A DNA stretch of 64,000 nt, from positions 62,001 through 126,000 of the forward strand of contig NZ_QPJM01000002.1 in NCBI RefSeq assembly GCF_003337575.1, given 5' to 3'. Positions 2,499 to 30,664 of this stretch are shown piece by piece (the first letter of the stretch is position 1; every line of letters starts with the position of its first letter). Below the pieces are notes generated by a model. It was not told the origin of the DNA and ran no database searches. It saw only the letters and a list, made by a program, of their open reading frames with translations. The position numbers and the translations under genes were made by a program. This stretch comes from Phyllobacterium bourgognense (lineage in GTDB: Bacteria; Pseudomonadota; Alphaproteobacteria; Rhizobiales; Rhizobiaceae).

Positions 2499-3167
2499 AT
2501 GAATTTTCGCATTAAAAATCACAGACTCGGCACTGGCACATCGAATGTGAATTTCATCGGCTCGCCGAATATTGGCGGCGAATTGAACCCCAGATTTCTG
2601 ATCATCCATTACACCGCGAGCGGACCGGACGCCGATATCGCCAGGTATTTTTCGCAAGAAGCTGCCAATGTTTCGGCACATCTCGTCGTCCGCCGCGATG
2701 GATCAGTCACGCAATGCGTGCCATTCAATGTTGTCGCCTGGCATGCGGGCAAGAGCCAGTGGACGGGGAGGGGCGGTACCAGATATTCGGGGCTGAACAG
2801 TTCGGCTATCGGCATCGAGATCGAGAACTGGGGACCGCTTGGCAAGAGTGCTGGAGGCTGGGTGTCGTGGACCGGAGTGGCCGTTGATGGGTCGAAGGTC
2901 ATCGAAGCCCGCCATAAGTTCGGCGTGCCCGATTGCGGCTGGGAAGTCTTCACCACAGCGCAGATCGAGACCGTGATTGCCATCGCGCAAGCTATCTGTC
3001 GCGCATATGCCATCGAGGATATCATGGGTCATGACGATATCGCCCCCCGCCGCAAGTCTGATCCCGGGCCGGCGTGGGACATGGAAGCGTTCAAGGCGCG
3101 GGTGAAAGAGAAGACTGAATATAAGAAAACAAATGGTACACGGATGCTGCAACGGACTGAGCGCTAG
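2499..3167 (+). CDS. N-acetylmuramoyl-L-alanine amidase (Amidase_2 family)
   Basis: This 222-residue zinc amidase cleaves the bond between N-acetylmuramate and L-alanine in peptidoglycan. Likely zinc ligands are His37 (IIHYTASG), His178 (GHDDIAP) and Asp188 (RRKSDPG), with Glu107 (GIEIEN) in the catalytic position. No signal peptide is evident, so it may act in the cytoplasm on muropeptides like AmpD, or be a prophage-type endolysin relic. The ATG at 2499 follows CTGAAGG; a longer reading from 2412 adds residues that fit no domain. The gene is convergent with uvrD and the stop codons almost touch. Confidence 0.9.
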   Translation: MNFRIKNHRLGTGTSNVNFIGSPNIGGELNPRFLIIHYTASGPDADIARYFSQEAANVSAHLVVRRDGSVTQCVPFNVVAWHAGKSQWTGRGGTRYSGLNSSAIGIEIENWGPLGKSAGGWVSWTGVAVDGSKVIEARHKFGVPDCGWEVFTTAQIETVIAIAQAICRAYAIEDIMGHDDIAPRRKSDPGPAWDMEAFKARVKEKTEYKKTNGTRMLQRTER

Positions 3168-22406: not shown

Positions 22407-22534
22407 ACTGATAATAAACCATTCAGTTATTTAACTATTTGGTTTTATACACCGCAATAAAGTGCGCGTCAAGCCTGCCTGGAGCCAGGCGGGAAGGGTG
22501 AGGGAAGGAGAATGAATGGAGAGGGGGAAAGTGA

Positions 22535-22850
22535 AGGCTTCTGTTGCCAGGTGCCTCCGAACCCCGCCTAGAAGTGCGAACCCCTAGGACTTGATTTGAA
22601 GCTATCGCACCGCATTAAGCGGCGAGACGTGCTTCCGCATAGTTGTCGTTTGCAACTACTAGGTTAGCCCGATAACGGTGGTACAATGCCGGGCAAAAGT
22701 TCGATCTTTACACTCTTGTCGATCCTATTTCGCCCCCGCCACAAAGCAGCCAAACCTGCTGCGTTCTGGTGGAGGCGCCGGGTACCGCCCCCGGGTCCAA
22801 TAAGCTTATTACATCGTCCGTTTATCGCCATAGCTGGCCGAAGCCAGCAG
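22535..22850 (-). ncRNA. ssrA: ssrA tmRNA, circularly permuted two-piece alphaproteobacterial form
   Basis: Read leftwards. The acceptor piece comes first (about 22850-22767) and ends GGCGCCTCCACCA with an encoded CCA at 22769-22767. A spacer of about 29 nt follows. The coding piece starts GGGGGCGAAATAGGATCGAC at 22737; GGGGGCG pairs with CGCCTCC of the acceptor piece to rebuild the tRNA-like stem. The tag frame (22653-22615) encodes ANDNYAEARLAA and a TAA stop, the Rhizobiales ssrA tag. Mature RNA rescues stalled ribosomes and marks the peptide for ClpXP. Outer ends are approximate; a CTATATAAG near 22858 could be the -10 box. Confidence 0.93.
22615..22653 (-). other. ssrA: ssrA tag-peptide reading frame
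   Basis: Thirteen codons, GCA AAC GAC ... GCC GCT TAA, encode the degradation tag ANDNYAEARLAA. The C-terminal LAA is the ClpX-recognition end. Confidence 0.93.
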
Positions 22851-23046
22851 CTCTTATATAGGAGCTGTTTAGCCGAATTGAAAGAGTGGCCGAATTGAAA
22901 CAGTGATTGACTTGGAACTGATGCTGGGGAATGTTTCGGGTGTCTAAAGGGCCATCGCCTCATGCATCTGCCAGTTTGTGCGATGTCTTCATTGTCAGGG
23001 AGGTTGCAATGCCACGCATTGAACCGAGCAATCAGGGGGTTTTTCG

Positions 23047-23358: not shown

Positions 23359-23383
23359 GCATTGGCGCCAGCGGATCCGAATC

Positions 23384-23411
23384 ATCCCCGGCGAATCACC
23401 GGGGATTTTTC
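23384..23411 (+). terminator. Rho-independent terminator after DUF2853 gene
   Basis: ATCCCCGG-CGAATCA-CCGGGGAT forms an 8-bp stem followed by a run of T residues. Confidence 0.85.
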
Positions 23412-23496
23412 ATTGAATACATAATTTCATCCACGCGGCCCTGTGGATCACGCACAAGTTCAAGTGTTTCGCCGGGCGAATCTGCTACAAGAAATC

Positions 23497-23640
23497 ATGC
23501 GCACTTATCTTGATCTTCAGCATGTGTTCGATCCGGGCGCTGATTGCGGCGACCGGACCTGTATTCGGTCCGTTTTCGGCCGTCAGATGCGTTTCGGCGA
23601 CACGAACATCGCTTATCTCGAGACTAGCCATTACTTTTAA
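23497..23640 (+). pseudogene. thyA: Remnant of a second (native-type) thymidylate synthase gene
   Basis: An open stretch of 47 codons starts MRTYLDLQHVFDPGADCGDR and continues RSVFGRQMRF, then jumps to GDTNIAYLE before a stop. Native rhizobial and E. coli-type ThyA begins MRTYLDLLQHVLD...DRGDRTGTGTRSVFGYQMRF, and the GDTNIAYLK motif comes some 30 residues later. So the remnant keeps the N-terminus, has lost one Leu and two residues of GTGT, has a large internal deletion, and lacks the whole catalytic part. A complete but different thyA starts 18 bp downstream. Confidence 0.85.
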
Positions 23641-23658
23641 GTACCACACGGATTTCAT

Positions 23659-24585
23659 ATGGCCCGCCACCCGGAATACCAGTATCTCGACCTGTTAGAG
23701 CATCTCCTTGAAAAGGGCGATCGTCGTATTGATCGCACAGGCGTCGGCACGCTGTCGATGTTTGGAACGATGATGCGTTTCGATTTATCCGATGGAACCT
23801 TCCCCGTTTACACAACGAAGAGGGTGTATTGGAAAACTGCAGTGAAGGAGATGCTGTGGTTTCTCACGGGGCAAACCAACATTCAATCACTCCTTCGCGA
23901 AAATGTGCGAATCTGGACTGACTGGCCTTTGGATAAGTACCGCAAGGCAACGGACGAGGCGATTTCGCAAGACGAGTTCGAGTCTCGCATTCTCTCGGAC
24001 GATGAGTTTGCCTTGAAATGGGGCGATCTGGGTCCGGTGTATGGAAAGCAATGGCGGCACTGGCTCGACGCGAATGGAAACGAGCACGACCAGATCGCTG
24101 ACGTCATCCAGACACTGAAAACCAATCCGGCGAGTCGTCGCATGCTGTTCCATGCCTGGAACGTAGGCGAGCTTGACCGCATGGCTCTGCATCCGTGCCA
24201 TATGACCTATCAGTTTTATGCGAGCGAAATGGCAAGCGGCGAGGGCAGCGGTTCGCGTGGTAAACTCTCTCTGCTTGTTGGACAGCGTTCCTGTGACCTC
24301 GGCCTGGGGAATGCCTTTAATATATGTCAGCAGGCAGCATTATTGTACATGGTCGCTCAACAGGTCGATATGACGCCTGGCGAGTTGATTTGGGTCGGAG
24401 GCGATGTACATCTGTACCTGAATCACATCGAAATGGCGAAGACACTGCTGTCGAGAGAGCCGAGGCCCTTCCCAAAATTGCGGCTTGCAAGACGACCAGA
24501 CTCCATCGATGGGTATCGGATAGAGGACTTCCAAGTAACGGGATATAACCCCCATCCGCCGCTCGAAGCGCCCGTAGCAGTCTAA
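23659..24585 (+). CDS. thyA: Thymidylate synthase, divergent long type
   Basis: The 308-residue enzyme makes dTMP from dUMP with methylene-THF. The catalytic cysteine is Cys180 (MALHPCHMTYQFY). DRTGVGTLSMFG, WGDLGPVYGKQWR, the RSCDLGLGNAFNI dUMP-binding block and the C-terminal PPLEAPVAV are present. An insertion around residues 88-121 (PLDKYRKATDEAIS...) distinguishes it from the short E. coli/rhizobial type and is shared with the long Firmicutes/Neisseria-like type. A remnant of the short type lies just upstream, so this gene probably replaced it by transfer. folA, its usual neighbour, is now 5.6 kb away beyond the ars island. Confidence 0.93.
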   Translation: MARHPEYQYLDLLEHLLEKGDRRIDRTGVGTLSMFGTMMRFDLSDGTFPVYTTKRVYWKTAVKEMLWFLTGQTNIQSLLRENVRIWTDWPLDKYRKATDEAISQDEFESRILSDDEFALKWGDLGPVYGKQWRHWLDANGNEHDQIADVIQTLKTNPASRRMLFHAWNVGELDRMALHPCHMTYQFYASEMASGEGSGSRGKLSLLVGQRSCDLGLGNAFNICQQAALLYMVAQQVDMTPGELIWVGGDVHLYLNHIEMAKTLLSREPRPFPKLRLARRPDSIDGYRIEDFQVTGYNPHPPLEAPVAV

Positions 24586-24693
24586 AAATCTGCCAACAAC
24601 ACTTTAGTTTGCTTCTTGGGATATCACGAAGATAAGCGGGCAAAAATTTGAGAAGGCGTCAGGAATTCTCATTACAACCTCAATCTTGTTGCG

Positions 24694-25965
24694 TTACCGA
24701 TTCCCTTGGCCCGCCCGCAGTTGTCGTCCAATAAGCGCGAACGACATTGCTGCCATTGAACCGATGGCGACGCAAATCAGCAGGGATGGTCCAATGCCCA
24801 GCCCATGCATGATGAAGGCAAATACAAAAGGTGCGCCCGACGATGCAACCAGACGGACGGCAGTGGACTGTCCAACTCGCTCGCCGTAACCCATGCTGCC
24901 GAACAGCGCCAGCGGAAGCGTCCCCTGCGCAATGCTGGCAAGCCCGCTTCCAAGGCCGAATATAACGGCAAACGCCAACGCCCCCGTTAGCCAACTACCG
25001 CTCCACAGCAGGATGGCTATCGCCGATGTCATCAGGGCCGTCGAAATGACTGCCAAACCGAGAGGTTGCAGTCTGTTTCCGCTCATGAGGCTGAACAATC
25101 GGCTGGCGACCTGTGCTGGACCGAACAAAGTGCCGACGAGAACATTGACGCTGCCCAGCCCGAGGGCCGTCAGGATTGGCAGCATATGGATCAAAATAGC
25201 AGCGTTGATAAAACCGAGAAGAGCGAAACCCGATACCATCAAGACGAATCCCTGACGAAGCCGATCTGTCGGAAGCGTACCCTCGACAATCGGCATCGCT
25301 GACGTTGTCGCTTGTTTGTGATGGTTGCGCGAAAGCACTGCCAACCAGAAGTGGATCGGGAGGCAAAGGAGCAAATGGGCTGCCGCGAACACATAGTACA
25401 CCTCGCGCCAGGTCAGATGTTGATGAAGCGCCGTCGTGACTGGCCAGAATATGGTTGAGGCAAATCCGGCGATCAGAGTGAGATGAGTGATGCTGGTTTT
25501 TGCCGTCGCCGGCTTGATCTGTACGAGCAGGGCGAATGCGGCATTGTAAAGCACGAACGTCGATGCGAGCTCGATGACGACAAGGCCGATAACGAAGGCA
25601 ATTGCATTTTGGGAAAGGGCACATGCCAGTAGGGCAATGGCAGCGCCAATTGAACCCAGCGCCATAACACGGCCCGCGCCAAACCTGTCAATCCATCGAC
25701 CCACCCAAGGAGATGCCAAGCCGCTTGCAAGGAGTGATGCGGAAAACGCTCCGAACACCCAATCTGATGGCCAGCCGAATTCCCGGCCCATTGAAGCCGC
25801 CAACGGACTGAAGCTGTAGTAGAGTGTCCCATAACCGATAATCTGCGTCACTCCGAGCGCGGCGACGATGAGGCGGCTTTGGCTGAGCAGCGGTGCGTTT
25901 TGAAACGTCCTCAATTCGTTCCTACGCCTCGCAGGTCTGGGTGCAGGTGTCGGCAGCAGGATCAC
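24694..25965 (-). CDS. MFS transporter of the arsenic island
   Basis: The 423-residue protein has 12 predicted membrane helices (ALGVTQIIGYGTLYYSFSPL at the start of helix 1; GRWIDRFGAGRVMALGS as the motif A loop). It starts at a GTG inside the end of the arsR gene (44-bp overlap) after AGGGACG, so it is translationally coupled to that regulator. Cotranscription with an arsR whose tail is cysteine-rich suggests efflux of an arsenical or a related metalloid compound, as with ArsK-like or other ars-linked MFS pumps. The substrate is inferred from context only. Confidence 0.85.
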   Translation of the reverse strand: MILLPTPAPRPARRRNELRTFQNAPLLSQSRLIVAALGVTQIIGYGTLYYSFSPLAASMGREFGWPSDWVFGAFSASLLASGLASPWVGRWIDRFGAGRVMALGSIGAAIALLACALSQNAIAFVIGLVVIELASTFVLYNAAFALLVQIKPATAKTSITHLTLIAGFASTIFWPVTTALHQHLTWREVYYVFAAAHLLLCLPIHFWLAVLSRNHHKQATTSAMPIVEGTLPTDRLRQGFVLMVSGFALLGFINAAILIHMLPILTALGLGSVNVLVGTLFGPAQVASRLFSLMSGNRLQPLGLAVISTALMTSAIAILLWSGSWLTGALAFAVIFGLGSGLASIAQGTLPLALFGSMGYGERVGQSTAVRLVASSGAPFVFAFIMHGLGIGPSLLICVAIGSMAAMSFALIGRQLRAGQGNR

Positions 25966-26251
25966 AGCGTCCCTGGCAGCAGTCCTTCATCAGGAACTCG
26001 ATCAAACCGGAAAGCGCCGGATAGACAGCACTATAGATGATCGAACGCGCCTCACGACGCGATTGTATAAGCCCCGCCCGCTCGAGATGGCTGAGGTGGA
26101 AGGATATCTTCGACGAGGACGCCCCCATGGCATCGCCGACAGCGCCGGCCGGCATGCCGTCTGGTCCGGCAATGACGAGCAGACGGACAATGCGGAGCCG
26201 GGTTTCCTGGGAGAGCGACGCAAATGCATCGAGTGCTTGCAATTCGTTCAT
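25922..26251 (-). CDS. arsR: ArsR family metalloid-responsive repressor (first copy)
   Basis: This 109-residue winged-helix protein begins MNELQALDAFASLSQETRLR, with recognition helix ASSSKISFHLSHLERAGLI. The C-terminus has clustered cysteines (KDCCQGRC, CTQTC), suited to As(III) binding at a C-terminal site as in the Acidithiobacillus/Corynebacterium-type ArsR proteins. It is divergent from the DUF6428-arsR-arsC operon and overlaps the MFS gene downstream by 44 bp. It probably controls both directions from the 46-bp gap. Confidence 0.92.
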   Translation of the reverse strand: MNELQALDAFASLSQETRLRIVRLLVIAGPDGMPAGAVGDAMGASSSKISFHLSHLERAGLIQSRREARSIIYSAVYPALSGLIEFLMKDCCQGRCDPAADTCTQTCEA

Positions 26252-26297
26252 AAGTACCTCAATATCTCAAAAGATGTTGAAATGAGGATAGATCAAC

Positions 26298-26825
26298 ATG
26301 AACACCGTGACCAGCCCGGTTTCTCTTGAATTTTATGGTGAGGGTACCCTTTCAGCGATGCTTGCCGCAATGGAACCGCACGCCGACAAATCGTTGGTCA
26401 TCGAGTATGGCGGACGCACGATCCAATCCGGCTATCATGTTACAGAAGTCAAGGCTGGGTCCTTCGTCACGCTCGATTGCGGTGGCAATCCCGATCAATG
26501 GCACGAAACCATTCTCCAGGTGGAAGACCTCCCTTCGGAAAGCGGTCGTGATTTCATGAAAGTGAGCAAATTCCGCGGGATATTAACTCAGGTCGCGAAC
26601 CAGATCGAACTTGACGCCGGCGCCCGCCTGACATTTGAGGTGGGAACGCCTGACACGCCCATGCAGGTCTTTGATGTCAGCGCGCTGGCAATCGAGTCCC
26701 ATCGCATTGTACTGGCCCTTGTCGCACGTCTTGCAATCTGCAAGCCGAGGCATCGCGCGGCAAAAGAGGCGGTCGCTGTATCGTGTTGTGGCTCAGCAGC
26801 GAAAAGCGCGGGATGTTGTCCCTGA
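26298..26825 (+). CDS. DUF6428 family protein of ars operon
   Basis: A 175-residue protein with SLVIEYGGRTIQSGYHVTEV near residue 33 and DCGGNPDQWHETILQV near residue 58, the DUF6428 pattern found in arsenic operons next to arsR. The C-terminus has paired cysteines (VSCCGSAAKSAGCC) that could bind metalloid. Function unproven. It is the first gene of the rightward ars transcription unit and is followed by arsR after 41 bp. Confidence 0.85.
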   Translation: MNTVTSPVSLEFYGEGTLSAMLAAMEPHADKSLVIEYGGRTIQSGYHVTEVKAGSFVTLDCGGNPDQWHETILQVEDLPSESGRDFMKVSKFRGILTQVANQIELDAGARLTFEVGTPDTPMQVFDVSALAIESHRIVLALVARLAICKPRHRAAKEAVAVSCCGSAAKSAGCCP

Positions 26826-26866
26826 GCGCCTTGACGATTTGACATAATATCGATATATCGCGATAT

Positions 26867-27223
26867 ATGGAAAAGAATGGTGCCATCGACGCCTTTTCGG
26901 CCATTGCGCAGCCAACGCGCATGGACGCATTCAAGCTCATCGTCATGCACGAGCCGGAGGGTATCGCGGCTGGCGAGGTATCCCGCATCCTCGACGTTCC
27001 GCAGAACACGATGTCGACCCATCTGGCGATCCTGTCGCGTGCCGGGCTGATTTCCTCGGAGCGGCAAAGCCGTTCCATCATTTACCGCGCCAGGTTCGAG
27101 AACCTGCGTGAAGCAATCAATTACCTTTTGAAGGATTGCTGCGCTGGCCATCCGGACATCTGCGCTCCATTGCTTGCCGACATCGTTCCGTGCTGCCCGC
27201 CGAAGGAGAACTTCAATGCATGA
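26867..27223 (+). CDS. arsR: ArsR family metalloid-responsive repressor (second copy)
   Basis: A 118-residue regulator with HTH core VPQNTMSTHLAILSRAGLIS. The C-terminal cysteines (KDCCAGHPDIC and PCCPP) suit trivalent arsenic sensing. It is a paralogue of the arsR on the other strand, with the same KDCC motif but diverged elsewhere. Its stop codon overlaps the start of arsC-arsN2 by 8 bp, so the two are translationally coupled. Confidence 0.92.
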   Translation: MEKNGAIDAFSAIAQPTRMDAFKLIVMHEPEGIAAGEVSRILDVPQNTMSTHLAILSRAGLISSERQSRSIIYRARFENLREAINYLLKDCCAGHPDICAPLLADIVPCCPPKENFNA

Positions 27224-28148
27224 TCGCATTTATAACGTCCTTTTTCTCTGCACCGGAAACTCTGCGCGCTCGATCCTGGCGGAATCAATCTTGAACACGG
27301 AGGGCAAGGGACGCTTTCGCGCGTACTCCGCCGGCAGTCAGCCGAAGGGCGAGGTCAACCCGTTCGCGCTCAAAGTTCTCGATGCTCTCGGTTACCCGGC
27401 GGAAGGTTTTCGCTCTAAGAGTTGGGATGAATTTGCCGAGCCGGGCGCGCCGGAATTGGATTTCATCTTCACGGTCTGCGACAGCGCGGCGGGAGAGGCG
27501 TGTCCGGTTTGGCCGGGCCATCCCATGACGGCTCATTGGGGCATCGAAGATCCGGCCGCCGTCGAAGGCGCCGACATGGAAAAGGAGAGAGCCTTTTCGC
27601 TTGCGGCCCGATACATGAAGAACAGGATCACGGCGTTCCTCAACCTGAGGCACGATTCCGTCGATCGGTTATGGCTGACAACAAGGCTGCAGGCAATCGG
27701 CCGCCGTGAGGGGTTGGAGGCGGAAGAAATAAATTCGATCGATACGGACTTCGAGAGGGCTCTTCAAGCGGCATCATTGCCGACCGGCGATCTTGCCGAA
27801 TCGAACGGCACGTTCTTTCGCTTTGCTGACCGCCAAGGCAATCCCGTCGGATTTGGCGGCGTCGAATTCTACGGAAAGGATGCGCTCTTGCGCTCGATCA
27901 CAGTGTCACCCGAGGCGCAAAAACATGGCCACGGCAGCGCCATTACACGTCTGTTGCTCCGCTATGCCGATATTCAGGGAGCCGAGACGGGCTATCTACT
28001 GACGACCAACGCCGCGCCATTCCAAGGCAAACTCGGCTTCCGCCCGGTCGACCGAAGCCTTGTGCCCGCCGCAATCCTGGCATCGCCGCAGGCATCCAGG
28101 CTTTGCCCCGCGACAGCGTCTGTCCTGACGCGGTCGGTTTCCATCTGA
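27216..28148 (+). CDS. Arsenate reductase (thioredoxin-type) fused to ArsN2-like GNAT acetyltransferase
   Basis: The protein has 310 residues in two domains. Residues 1-145 are a low-molecular-weight phosphatase-like arsenate reductase: FLCTGNSARS with Cys12 and Arg18, plus Cys88 (TVCDS) and Cys96 (EACPVWPGHP), the three-cysteine relay of thioredoxin-coupled ArsC. After a linker, residues about 178-300 form a GNAT domain (FGGVEFYGKDALLRSITVSPEAQKHGHGSA; TNAAPFQGKLGFRPVDRS) like arsenic-resistance acetyltransferase ArsN2. It reduces As(V) to As(III) and may acetylate an arsenical such as arsinothricin. The fusion is known in the ArsN2 group. Confidence 0.9.
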   Translation: MHDRIYNVLFLCTGNSARSILAESILNTEGKGRFRAYSAGSQPKGEVNPFALKVLDALGYPAEGFRSKSWDEFAEPGAPELDFIFTVCDSAAGEACPVWPGHPMTAHWGIEDPAAVEGADMEKERAFSLAARYMKNRITAFLNLRHDSVDRLWLTTRLQAIGRREGLEAEEINSIDTDFERALQAASLPTGDLAESNGTFFRFADRQGNPVGFGGVEFYGKDALLRSITVSPEAQKHGHGSAITRLLLRYADIQGAETGYLLTTNAAPFQGKLGFRPVDRSLVPAAILASPQASRLCPATASVLTRSVSI

Positions 28149-28157
28149 GGAAGAGCC

Positions 28158-28265
28158 ATGTCCATCTTTGAACATTATCTCGTTATCGGGCTGGCCTTGC
28201 GCAGGGCCGTCGGTGTCGCATTCGGGTCCGGTGAAATTGGCCGCATTCAGGCGGGAATGGGTTAA
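28158..28265 (+). pseudogene. Remnant of ACR3 arsenite efflux permease
   Basis: A 35-codon frame reads MSIFEHYLVIGLALRRAVGV, then AFGSGEIGRIQAGMG, and stops in TAATG overlapping the aqpS start. ACR3 pumps begin MSxFERYLxLWVALCIVxGIALG, so this is the N-terminus of an ACR3 gene whose remaining roughly 320 codons are gone. The start and the segment around AVGVAFG align; the rest is diverged. It sits exactly where an efflux pump belongs in an ars operon. It may still be translated to couple aqpS. Confidence 0.75.
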
Positions 28266-28978
28266 TGGCCGTGACGCCGGACCTGTCCCGTCGCCTCGCG
28301 GCAGAAGCGCTGGGCACGGCGATGCTCGTTGCGACCGTCCTCGGTTCGGGAATCATGGCCGACCGGCTGACGAACGATGTGGCGCTTTCGCTGCTTGGCA
28401 ATACGATCCCCACTGGTGCGATCCTGGTGGTGCTGATCACCATCCTTGGACCGATTTCGGGCGCACACTTCAATCCGGCGGTGACGATGGTCTTCGCGCT
28501 TCGGCGGGAGATGGAGCCGAATGCAGCGGTCCTCTACATCATCGCGCAGATCGCGGGGGGTGTAGCCGGATCGCTGATTGCCCACGCGATGTTCGAGCTT
28601 CCGATCATCGAGATTTCGGCGAAAGTTCGCACCGGGACGGGACAGTGGATTGCGGAAGTCGTAGCCGCTTTCGGTCTCGTCTTTACAATCCTTGCGGGCC
28701 TTCGCTTTCGGCCGGATGCAATTCCCTGGCTGGTCGGACTCTACATCACCGCCGCCTACTGGTTCACCGCCTCGACATCGTTTGCCAATCCAGCCGTCGC
28801 GATCGCGCGAGCGCTGTCGAATACCTTCGCAGGTATCCGGCCCGTCGATTTACCTGGCTTTGTCATCGCAGAGATATTCGGGGCATTGCTTGCAATGGCC
28901 CTGGCAAGCTGGATGCTGGCGGAACAGACTCCCGCGCCGCAGGCGCCCAACAGATTGAAAGGTGCTGAACAGCCATGA
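28265..28978 (+). CDS. aqpS: Aquaglyceroporin of ars operon (AqpS-like, MIP family)
   Basis: A 237-residue channel with six helices and both half-helix motifs intact: GAHFNPAVT and FANPAVAIAR. In Sinorhizobium meliloti, AqpS replaces an efflux pump in the ars operon and lets As(III) produced by ArsC flow out down its gradient. The same role is inferred here because the operon has two arsenate reductases, a broken ACR3 gene and no other dedicated arsenite pump on this strand. The start overlaps the ACR3 remnant stop (TAATG) and the stop overlaps the next arsC start by 4 bp. Confidence 0.93.
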   Translation: MAVTPDLSRRLAAEALGTAMLVATVLGSGIMADRLTNDVALSLLGNTIPTGAILVVLITILGPISGAHFNPAVTMVFALRREMEPNAAVLYIIAQIAGGVAGSLIAHAMFELPIIEISAKVRTGTGQWIAEVVAAFGLVFTILAGLRFRPDAIPWLVGLYITAAYWFTASTSFANPAVAIARALSNTFAGIRPVDLPGFVIAEIFGALLAMALASWMLAEQTPAPQAPNRLKGAEQP

Positions 28979-29397
28979 CCGTCACCATCTACCACAATCC
29001 GTCGTGCGGCACGTCACGCAACACGCTGGCTCTCATCCGAAACGCGGGCATCGAGCCGACGATCATCGAATATCTGAAGTCGCCGCCCGCTCGACAGGAA
29101 CTCAAGGATTTGATCCGGAGAGCCGGACTGACGGTTCGCGAAGCGATACGCGAAAAAGGCACTCCATACGCCGAACTCGGTCTCGACAACCCGTCTTTGA
29201 CCGACGAGCAGTTGCTGGACGCGATGGAGGCGCATCCAGTTTTGATCAATCGCCCCTTTGTTGTAAGCGAGTTGGGCGTACGCTTGAGCCGGCCATCGGA
29301 GGTCGTCCTGGACATTCTGCCAAACCCGCAAAAGGCGCCATTTGCGAAAGAAGACGGTGAGGTCGTCATCGATGCCGAAGGAAAGCGTGTTGTCTGA
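28975..29397 (+). CDS. arsC: Arsenate reductase, glutaredoxin-type
   Basis: This 140-residue enzyme has the ArsC/Spx thioredoxin-like fold: [15 protein letters not shown] with catalytic Cys12, IIEYLKSPP and [19 protein letters not shown] with the arginines that bind arsenate. It reduces As(V) with glutathione and glutaredoxin. The operon therefore holds two unrelated arsenate reductases. The start overlaps aqpS by 4 bp, and the arsH frame begins inside its end. Confidence 0.95.
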
Positions 29398-30087
29398 TCT
29401 GCCTAATATTCTTCCCGACGCGCTGCATGTCCCGGAGCGTTCGAAGCTCTCTGCGCCAGAATCCACCCATCGTCCGCGTATCTTGCTGCTCCATGGCTCG
29501 TTGCGGAAAGTCTCCTACAGCCGTCTTCTGACGCAGGAGGCGGCGCGGCTGCTCGAGCATTTCGGGGCGGAAACCCGCATCTACGATCCAGCCGGATTGC
29601 CGCTGCCTGACGATGCACCGATTGACCATCCAAAGGTGCAGGAACTGCGCGATCTCTCTCTATGGTCGGAGGGCCAGGTGTGGACAAGCCCTGAGCGGCA
29701 CGGTGCGATGACCGGCGTTATGAAGTCACAGATCGACTGGATACCATTGGCAATGGGAGCGATTCGCCCAACCCAGGGGCGGACGCTTGCCGTCATGCAG
29801 GTGTCAGGCGGTTCGCAGTCGTTCAACGCTGTCAACCAGATGCGCGTGCTCGGGCGCTGGATGCGCATGGTCACCATCCCTAACCAGTCGTCGGTTGCGA
29901 GTTCGACGAGCACGGCCGTATGAAGCCGTCCGCCTATTATGACCGCGTCGTTGACGTGATGGAAGAACTCGTCAAGTTCACGCTGCTGACGCGTGATGTT
30001 TCGGAATATCTCACGGACCGTTACAGCGAGCGCAAGGAAAGTGCGGCCACATTTGAAAAGCGCGCCAATCTCAAGAATGCTGTTTGA
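29372..30087 (+). pseudogene. arsH: arsH, NADPH-dependent FMN reductase of ars operon, frameshifted
   Basis: From about 29372 to 29897 the frame encodes ArsH ([79 protein letters not shown]). It then shifts and stops at 29923. The rest continues in another frame from about 29900 ([36 protein letters not shown]) to a TGA at 30087. About 13 nt that should encode a KAFQ-like segment before EFDEHG seem deleted. ArsH oxidises trivalent organoarsenicals. A sequencing error is less likely than a deletion but not excluded. Confidence 0.88.
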
Positions 30088-30163
30088 ATTTCACCCGAGC
30101 ATCAGGACGCCGATCGCGGTATAGACTCCGCGCGAATGTTTGTTTGAAACGGATGGATACCTG

Positions 30164-30664
30164 ATGATCAGTTTTGTCGTTGCGATTGCCGAAAATGGCG
30201 TGATCGGCCGTGAGAATGGTTTGCCATGGCGGCTGTCCTCGGATCTGAAGCGGTTCAAGGCGACCACCATGGGCAAGCCCATCATCATGGGGCGCAAGAC
30301 ATGGGATTCGCTCGGGCGGCCGCTGCCCGGCCGAACCAACATCGTCATCACGCGCGATCCTGCTTTTTCCGTTGAGGGTGTTATCGCCGCCCGGTCTATC
30401 GATCAGGCACTGATGATTGCGGGAAGCCATGCCGGTGCCGACAAGGTCGACGAGATCTGCATTATCGGCGGCGGCGATATTTTTCGGCAGACCTTGAACC
30501 GTGCCGACAGGCTGTATGTCACCTGGGTGCTCGCCGAAGTCGAAGGCGATGTCGTTTTCCCCCCGATCGATCCGAAGGTATGGACCGAGGTTTCCAGCGA
30601 GGATTTCCCGGCGGGTGAAAAAGACAATTATGCAACGCGGTTTGCCATCTACGAACGCGGTTAA
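30164..30664 (+). CDS. folA: Dihydrofolate reductase
   Basis: The 166-residue enzyme reduces dihydrofolate to tetrahydrofolate with NADPH, recycling the dihydrofolate made by ThyA. Motifs: VVAIAENGVIGRENGLPWRL, then GKPIIMGRKTWDSLGRPLPG and ICIIGGGDIFRQTL. The length is normal. ATG 30164 is the family start; a TTG eight codons earlier has no support. In related genomes folA directly follows thyA; here the ars island separates them. Confidence 0.95.
   Translation: MISFVVAIAENGVIGRENGLPWRLSSDLKRFKATTMGKPIIMGRKTWDSLGRPLPGRTNIVITRDPAFSVEGVIAARSIDQALMIAGSHAGADKVDEICIIGGGDIFRQTLNRADRLYVTWVLAEVEGDVVFPPIDPKVWTEVSSEDFPAGEKDNYATRFAIYERG

Follow-up and report, generated by a model that had tools for sequence, protein, structure and literature searches.

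The native thymidylate synthase gene (thyA) of Phyllobacterium bourgognense was very probably displaced by a thyA-targeting, thyA-carrying integrative element, of which the genome studied here and a sister genome keep the relic. What looks like a gene swap would thereby acquire a mechanism, in which a mobile element disrupts an essential gene and brings the substitute with it. Throughout, the window is the whole stretch of 64,000 nucleotides that was analysed; G000 denotes the window genome, G013 the sister genome and G018 P. trifolii CECT 7015.

Both ends of a native thyA flank a foreign block

The features of the locus are given below in window coordinates.

23400..23496, plus strand: native thyA 5′ flank, from the hairpin tail to the start codon; 83/96 nt identical to P. 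trifolii, shuffles 0/1000
23497..23640, plus strand: 5′ relic of the short native thyA; ~36 native codons with minor gaps, then a ~84-nt deletion, GDTNIAYLE and the stop
23641..30094, no strand: foreign block, putative element remains; thyA2 and arsenic genes, about 6.5 kb, between two native thyA ends
23659..24585, plus strand: thyA2, long-type thymidylate synthase, 308 aa; PF00303, E 1.2e-105, profile positions 2-266 of 266
24694..25965, minus strand: arsK, arsenite efflux MFS transporter (cargo); NF033733, E 2.1e-160
27174..28148, plus strand: ArsC-type reductase/ArsN2 acetyltransferase fusion (cargo); NF040501 above its cut-off, arsC models below theirs
28265..28978, plus strand: MIP-family aquaporin-like channel (cargo); TIGR00861, E 4.5e-21, under its cut-off
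28975..29397, plus strand: second ArsC-like frame (cargo), named by eye
29342..29923, plus strand: ArsH-like FMN reductase frame; PF03358, the name ArsH given by eye
30095..30124, plus strand: 3′ relic of the native thyA, its nine last codons and stop; 29/30 nt identical to P. trifolii, shuffles 0/1000
30164..30658, plus strand: folA, the right-hand native neighbour; PF00186, E 2.6e-59

A preliminary description of this DNA had taken the 47-codon frame at 23497-23640 for a decayed native thyA of the short type and had suggested aligning it with short thyA genes at the nucleotide level. The identity is present: in local alignment with the native thyA of P. trifolii, 90/100 nt agree over the first ~36 native codons, and past the ~84-nt deletion a second block spanning GDTNIAYLE agrees at 25/27 nt; the final ~5 codons before the stop are non-native. 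Each alignment was compared with 1000 mononucleotide shuffles, and its score was attained by 0/1000 in every test. The other end of the gene, at 30095-30124, had been overlooked; it is followed by a conserved gap and then by folA. Native thyA ends on both sides of the foreign block indicate that the old gene was split, with ~23641-30094 inside it. The earlier proposal that a transferred long-type gene displaced the native one in place and left a fossil is thus borne out, but the replacement was most likely not a simple gene swap, since eight other genomes share the split and the native 3′ end lies past the arsenic genes.

A terminator-like hairpin (23384-23406) lies 5′ of the relic, in a scan whose hairpin count is at chance level, and a promoter scan of 23359-24700 found no consensus and nothing exceeding chance. 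Shortly 5′ of the thyA locus there is a tmRNA gene (22524-22859; ARAGORN, flagged tmRNA*, tag ANDNYAEARLAA).

The sister genome has the identical type of relic at both ends, with the same deletions, and the same cargo genes as the window. Between the two genomes the 47-codon frames show 3 amino-acid-changing and 2 silent differences in 144 nt, which are too few for a decision on selection, and the thyA2 genes differ with a pN of 0.0056 and a pS of 0.129. Because the same relic with the same deletions recurs in G013 and thyA2 has reached this pS, the event took place before the two genomes diverged, and the earlier dating of the replacement as fairly recent is unsupported.

The block carries thyA2 and arsenic genes

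As first described, a complete long-type ThyA begins 18 nt past the relic (23640 to 23659). This thyA2 is the sole match to PF00303 in the window genome at E<=0.001 (assembly 96.5 % complete), and a ThyX match was found in 0/10 genomes, comprising the window genome, G013 and the eight element genomes described below. The single-frame ArsC-ArsN2 fusion of the window is 82 % identical to the fusion in the P. trifolii island. The ArsH-like frame has been shortened by a small deletion (193 aa, compared with 252 aa in G013), which is either real or a sequencing error.

No recombination module was detected in the window genome with profiles of the B gene (E<=1e-20) or the C gene (E<=1e-5) of the relatives' elements; the C-gene profile likewise had no match in G013 at E<=1e-5, and the window showed no intact element end. 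With neither a recombinase gene nor an intact end found there, the element origin of the window block rests on its homologues. The same absence would suit a different course of events, in which a foreign thyA and ars operon entered between thyA and folA by ordinary homologous or illegitimate recombination, no thyA-targeting element taking part, and the native gene decayed later; the long thyA that follows a DUF2853 gene in G026 and G010, with neither island nor visible relic, would also suit such a course. We consider such an entry improbable, since the foreign block lies within the native thyA, the window thyA2 nests among element copies, and the P. trifolii island carries the same kind of gene with ars cargo, accompanied by a module and ends.

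thyA is split at the same codons in eight other genomes

In P. trifolii, G033, G053, R. redzepovicii, G237, G270, G984 and G1107, thyA is cut at LG(V/L)|PF|N codons and a complete long thyA2 lies within the break. The break falls within the coding region in 8/8, about two thirds along the gene, and thyA parts are kept at both attL and attR in 8/8 (split attB retained). Both halves are on one contig in 6/8, the 3′ half being on a different contig in R. redzepovicii and G270, where just the two ends are visible. In 7/8 loci thyA2 lies directly inside the left end in the orientation of the native thyA; in G237 some 35 kb, mostly unread, separate the left end from thyA2. P. trifolii, G033 and G053, which make up the 3/59 relatives with a split thyA (profile positions ~1-178 and ~160-266), have the complete long thyA directly 3′ of the native 5′ part, and their halves lie ~90 kb, ~39 kb and ~4 kb apart, respectively. 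The G1107 locus has only thyA2 and ~0.6 kb before the 3′ half. Arsenic genes lie near the right end of the P. trifolii island. The broken resident thyA of G237 (L059 5374-6054, L060 ~2870-3140) is itself of the long type, with a second long thyA2 in the element.

When type was judged from match length and score in a 20-genome sample of the genus, the best match was short-type in 16/20 and long in G000, G013, G018 and G010. The statement that a short thyA adjoins folA in relatives holds for P. trifolii, whose short native thyA is followed by folA, but not for G006, where ABC-transporter-like frames (by eye) come next and folA does not. Long ThyA is present in several other Alphaproteobacteria, which would accord with vertical inheritance of the long ThyA, the 47-codon frame then being a chance or duplicated fragment. 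This is hardly conceivable given the predominance of the short type in the genus, the match of relic and flank to native thyA and the native 3′ end adjoining folA, and the split-gene relatives contradict it.

Other arrangements were seen among the relatives. G026 (L041 7465-8358) has a DUF2853-like gene, a long thyA and folA in succession with no island and no visible relic, and in G010 (L039 8211-9107) a long thyA likewise follows a DUF2853-like gene, with no island or visible relic and with other genes before folA. G028 (C4), G017 (C19) and G024 (C31) have, alongside a normal thyA, a second partial PF00303 match in frames of 335-384 aa; at a guess, these are perhaps phage-type dCMP/dUMP enzymes.

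Element ends and the target hexamer

The left ends read TTTTCC in 7/8 (TTTTCA in G053) and the right ends GGAAAA in 8/8, forming inverted repeats whose first 5-13 nt are identical in 8/8 (11 nt in P. trifolii), and six nt separate the element from the gene at either end. On the right this hexamer is CCCTTC or CCGTTC (CCSTTC), as in native thyA, in 7/8; in G237, where the element broke a gene of the long type, it is GCCTTC. The left hexamers are CCCTTC in two loci and TGTTTC, GGCAAT, CCGTTT, CCGAGG, AAGGAC and CGGACA in one each. SEs are reported to retain the hexamer of the target at one end and to receive that of the donor at the other, as has been noted for Tn554 too (PMC10214605). The pattern at thyA fits this target/donor rule and suggests that several elements came from sites other than thyA; movement would then take an SE/Tn554-like route with a 6-nt overlap, the target hexamer staying in place and the donor hexamer being carried to the other end.

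Plain GInt/ICE-like cut-and-paste would instead lack this strand bias, and the left hexamers would be products of mismatch repair or of later decay. GInts likewise make 6-nt staggered cuts and have mixed att sequences (PMC5385486, in the passages cited), and 2/8 right hexamers came from a pattern requiring NCNTTC. We regard cut-and-paste as unlikely, though a serious contender, because CCSTTC recurs on the right in 7/8, whereas the left hexamers often bear no resemblance to thyA (AAGGAC, CGGACA, GGCAAT, CCGAGG).

The attR junction pattern was found in 3/397 order genomes and 4/394 family genomes, two samples that partly overlap, and its reversed control in 0 among the matches listed. It flagged G984 and G1107 before their thyA was inspected, and both proved to have a split thyA with thyA2; since the pattern requires NCNTTC, their right hexamers were partly preset by the search. 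Relative to a consensus compiled from native sequences, the att region of thyA2 differs at 9-15/27 nt in 10 genes (eight elements, the window and G013), compared with 0-3 differences in four native short genes and 4-10 in eight non-element long genes. Self-immunity through an altered thyA2 att site was considered and set aside, as the differences in non-element long genes make it inseparable from general divergence.

A four-gene recombinase module accompanies thyA2

A module with the gene order C-B-D-A lies beside thyA2 and is complete in 5/8 element loci; G984 has C and part of B within the stretch examined, and a search with the C profile revealed only a C fragment in G053 and G1107. The products measure 877-1176 aa (C), 663-704 aa (B, with a longest frame of 749 aa in G033), 177-192 aa (D) and 460-546 aa (A). 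A and B are tyrosine-recombinase-like: with motifs identified by eye, R267, H382, R385, H427 and Y436 of A and R360, R475, H498 and Y507 of B are invariant in the five elements. The C protein of the same five, also by eye, has N786 where the first Arg is expected and retains R901, H925 and Y933; it gave no family match, and an AlphaFold model of the 1100-aa C protein was unusable (mean pLDDT 42.8). The small D protein looks coiled-coil-like by eye.

Plasmid pML2037 of Mesorhizobium loti has an A-C-B-D module (L084 4664-9840) annotated as integrase, two hypothetical proteins and ZapB, which is a GInt/SE-like element on a plasmid. HHalign comparison with this module, not with SE proteins, returned probabilities of 97.5 % for A, 99.3 % for B and 93.9 % for C, and of 0.3 % for D, which reveals no relationship to the D protein of M. 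loti. A search of plasmids with the 663-aa B protein gave distant matches only (7 records, 22-34 % identity), and the C protein had no match there. A phage origin of the module was also considered and rejected: the B protein had no phage match, and none was confirmed in viral_contigs, which was scanned with two short patterns only. On the 1.3-Mb plasmid pRlX5 of Rhizobium leguminosarum, a long thyA (L058 13998-14963) has folA- and dut-like frames after it and recA-, sigma factor- and mutL-like frames in its vicinity; these frames, all named by eye, make up a plasmid-borne cluster of replication or repair genes, and no such module was seen by eye in the stretch examined.

ThyA phylogeny and prevalence of the elements

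The preliminary description had also proposed a ThyA tree. In a tree of 23 ThyA, which includes 6/8 element copies (G984 and G1107 were left out), one clade (100/99) holds the thyA2 of the window and G013 together with that of the P. trifolii, G033 and R. redzepovicii elements. The element copies of G053, G237 and G270 form a separate group (85/82, not starred), and the placement of long resident ThyA is unresolved in this tree. All element copies and the window pair formed a single clade in 0/200 bootstrap trees. Accordingly, thyA2 may have been acquired on two occasions, or certain resident genes may be element copies that were captured.

An order-wide integrase search (E<=1e-20) gave matches in 4/397 genomes, two of them in split thyA and two weak ones (G350, G364) in genomes with one intact short-type thyA. 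Prevalence thus comes to at least about 1 % of the species sampled, given the sensitivity of the search; the wider scan of genome contigs used two short peptide patterns and was non-exhaustive. A survey of the class (385 genomes, 114 with thyA) revealed, by eye, no further split accompanied by a long thyA; broken or multiple thyA matches occur in G466, G630, G449, G741, G699 and G776.

A proposed course of displacement

We propose that an element with a four-gene tyrosine-recombinase module inserts at the LG(V/L)-PF-N codons and thereby splits thyA. These are codons that ThyA can hardly change, which would give the element a wide choice of hosts, and because the element supplies a complete, divergent thyA2, dTMP synthesis could survive the break. 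The incoming gene would be placed downstream of the native 5′ flank in the native direction. Once the native gene is broken, thyA2 would become essential, and a simple deletion could then no longer remove the element, or at any rate not thyA2. Judged from their sequences, the elements are presumably mobile and thyA2 presumably active and essential.

An ancestor of the window genome would have carried such an element. In its lineage the module and the greater part of the broken gene would later have disappeared, while thyA2 and the arsenic genes stayed. The loci can be arranged as an erosion series in which module and broken gene decay with time, as in G1107, followed by the window, where no more than the two ends of the native gene remain; the last stage, which is a guess, would be a long thyA at the native position with no visible trace of the element, the arrangement of G026. 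The succession from intact element through decayed element to relic offers a testable path for the replacement of a core metabolic gene, and it implies that ThyA trees and thyA-based markers can track mobile elements instead of hosts.

Comparison with known systems

No description of islands in thyA was found in the open literature, among the matches listed and as judged from titles and the beginnings of abstracts. By its organization, the closest precedent is the tmk island of Pseudomonas putida. In strain KT2440 the tmk gene is split by an island whose dNMPK assumes its function (Wirth et al. 2023, PMC10653934); in the passages cited, tmk islands of several genera share four mobility orthologues, two of which are tyrosine recombinases. 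Both systems split an essential gene of the dTMP pathway and carry a replacement enzyme, a putative one in the thyA elements, and the arrangement of a split target with thyA2 inside the element was found in 8/8 thyA loci. The KT2440 island has an arsenate operon, as the thyA block has arsenic genes, and some strains have stand-alone replacement genes without mobile genes (PMC10653934). The systems differ in that the tmk islands strike tmk and bring a dNMPK akin to the phage T4 enzyme, and in their hosts, which are given as Pseudomonas, Acinetobacter, Psychrobacter and Halomonas, whereas those of the thyA elements are alphaproteobacterial. The tmk replacement was complementation-tested (PMC10653934), and the thyA elements are likened to the tmk islands by their organization.

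Among recombinase systems, SEs are described as having four core proteins, among them an ordinary and a large tyrosine recombinase and a recombinase-like protein, in the order IntA-Tfp-IntB-Srap (PMC10214605). The thyA elements resemble them in the four-gene core, the retained split attB and the inverted repeats around a 6-bp spacer, and differ from them in gene order (C-B-D-A), in their alphaproteobacterial hosts and in carrying the target gene; the words 'thyA' and 'thymidylate' are absent from the main text of that paper. The TetR-like orthologue of the tmk islands may by analogy correspond to Srap, for which a low-confidence TetR-like match is described (PMC10214605).

GInts comprise ginABCD with cargo after ginD, and their GinC lacks the first catalytic Arg (Bardaji et al. 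2017, PMC5385486). Three integrase-type genes and a small gene, with one product lacking the first Arg, were likewise found in the thyA elements (by eye, from motifs only), and large cargo, a fixed site and 6-nt cuts are further points of likeness. In GInts ginA-B-C-D stand at the 5′ end with the cargo after them, whereas the thyA element reads C-B-D-A, with thyA2 before C and cargo on either side. The passages cited name ssb, an ABC transporter and a ribonucleotide reductase gene as GInt targets, but do not name thyA, and the authors regard the target as probably not fully inactivated (PMC5385486), in contrast to the coding region cut in 8/8 thyA elements. Because gene order, hosts and the carried target gene differ, we file the thyA elements as SE/GInt-like and as members of neither group. 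Phage phi3T of Bacillus, with its thyP3, is also a mobile element that delivers a thymidylate synthase gene, but as described it does so by converting thymine auxotrophs or by homologous recombination, with no splitting of thyA (PMC8270828, PMC8637289, in the passages cited).

Together with the tmk island of P. putida, thyA would be the second essential dTMP gene to be struck in this way, and in another bacterial class. We tentatively suggest, at slightly less than an even chance, that the islands in thyA and in tmk both branch from a general SE/GInt-type class, one that targets codons kept invariant in essential dTMP genes and brings the spare along. If so, this class would gain a target conserved in many hosts as well as the dependence of each host on the element; a spare, once captured, could be hit again, as in G237, and repeated rounds could partly account for the scattered distribution of long and short ThyA among bacteria.
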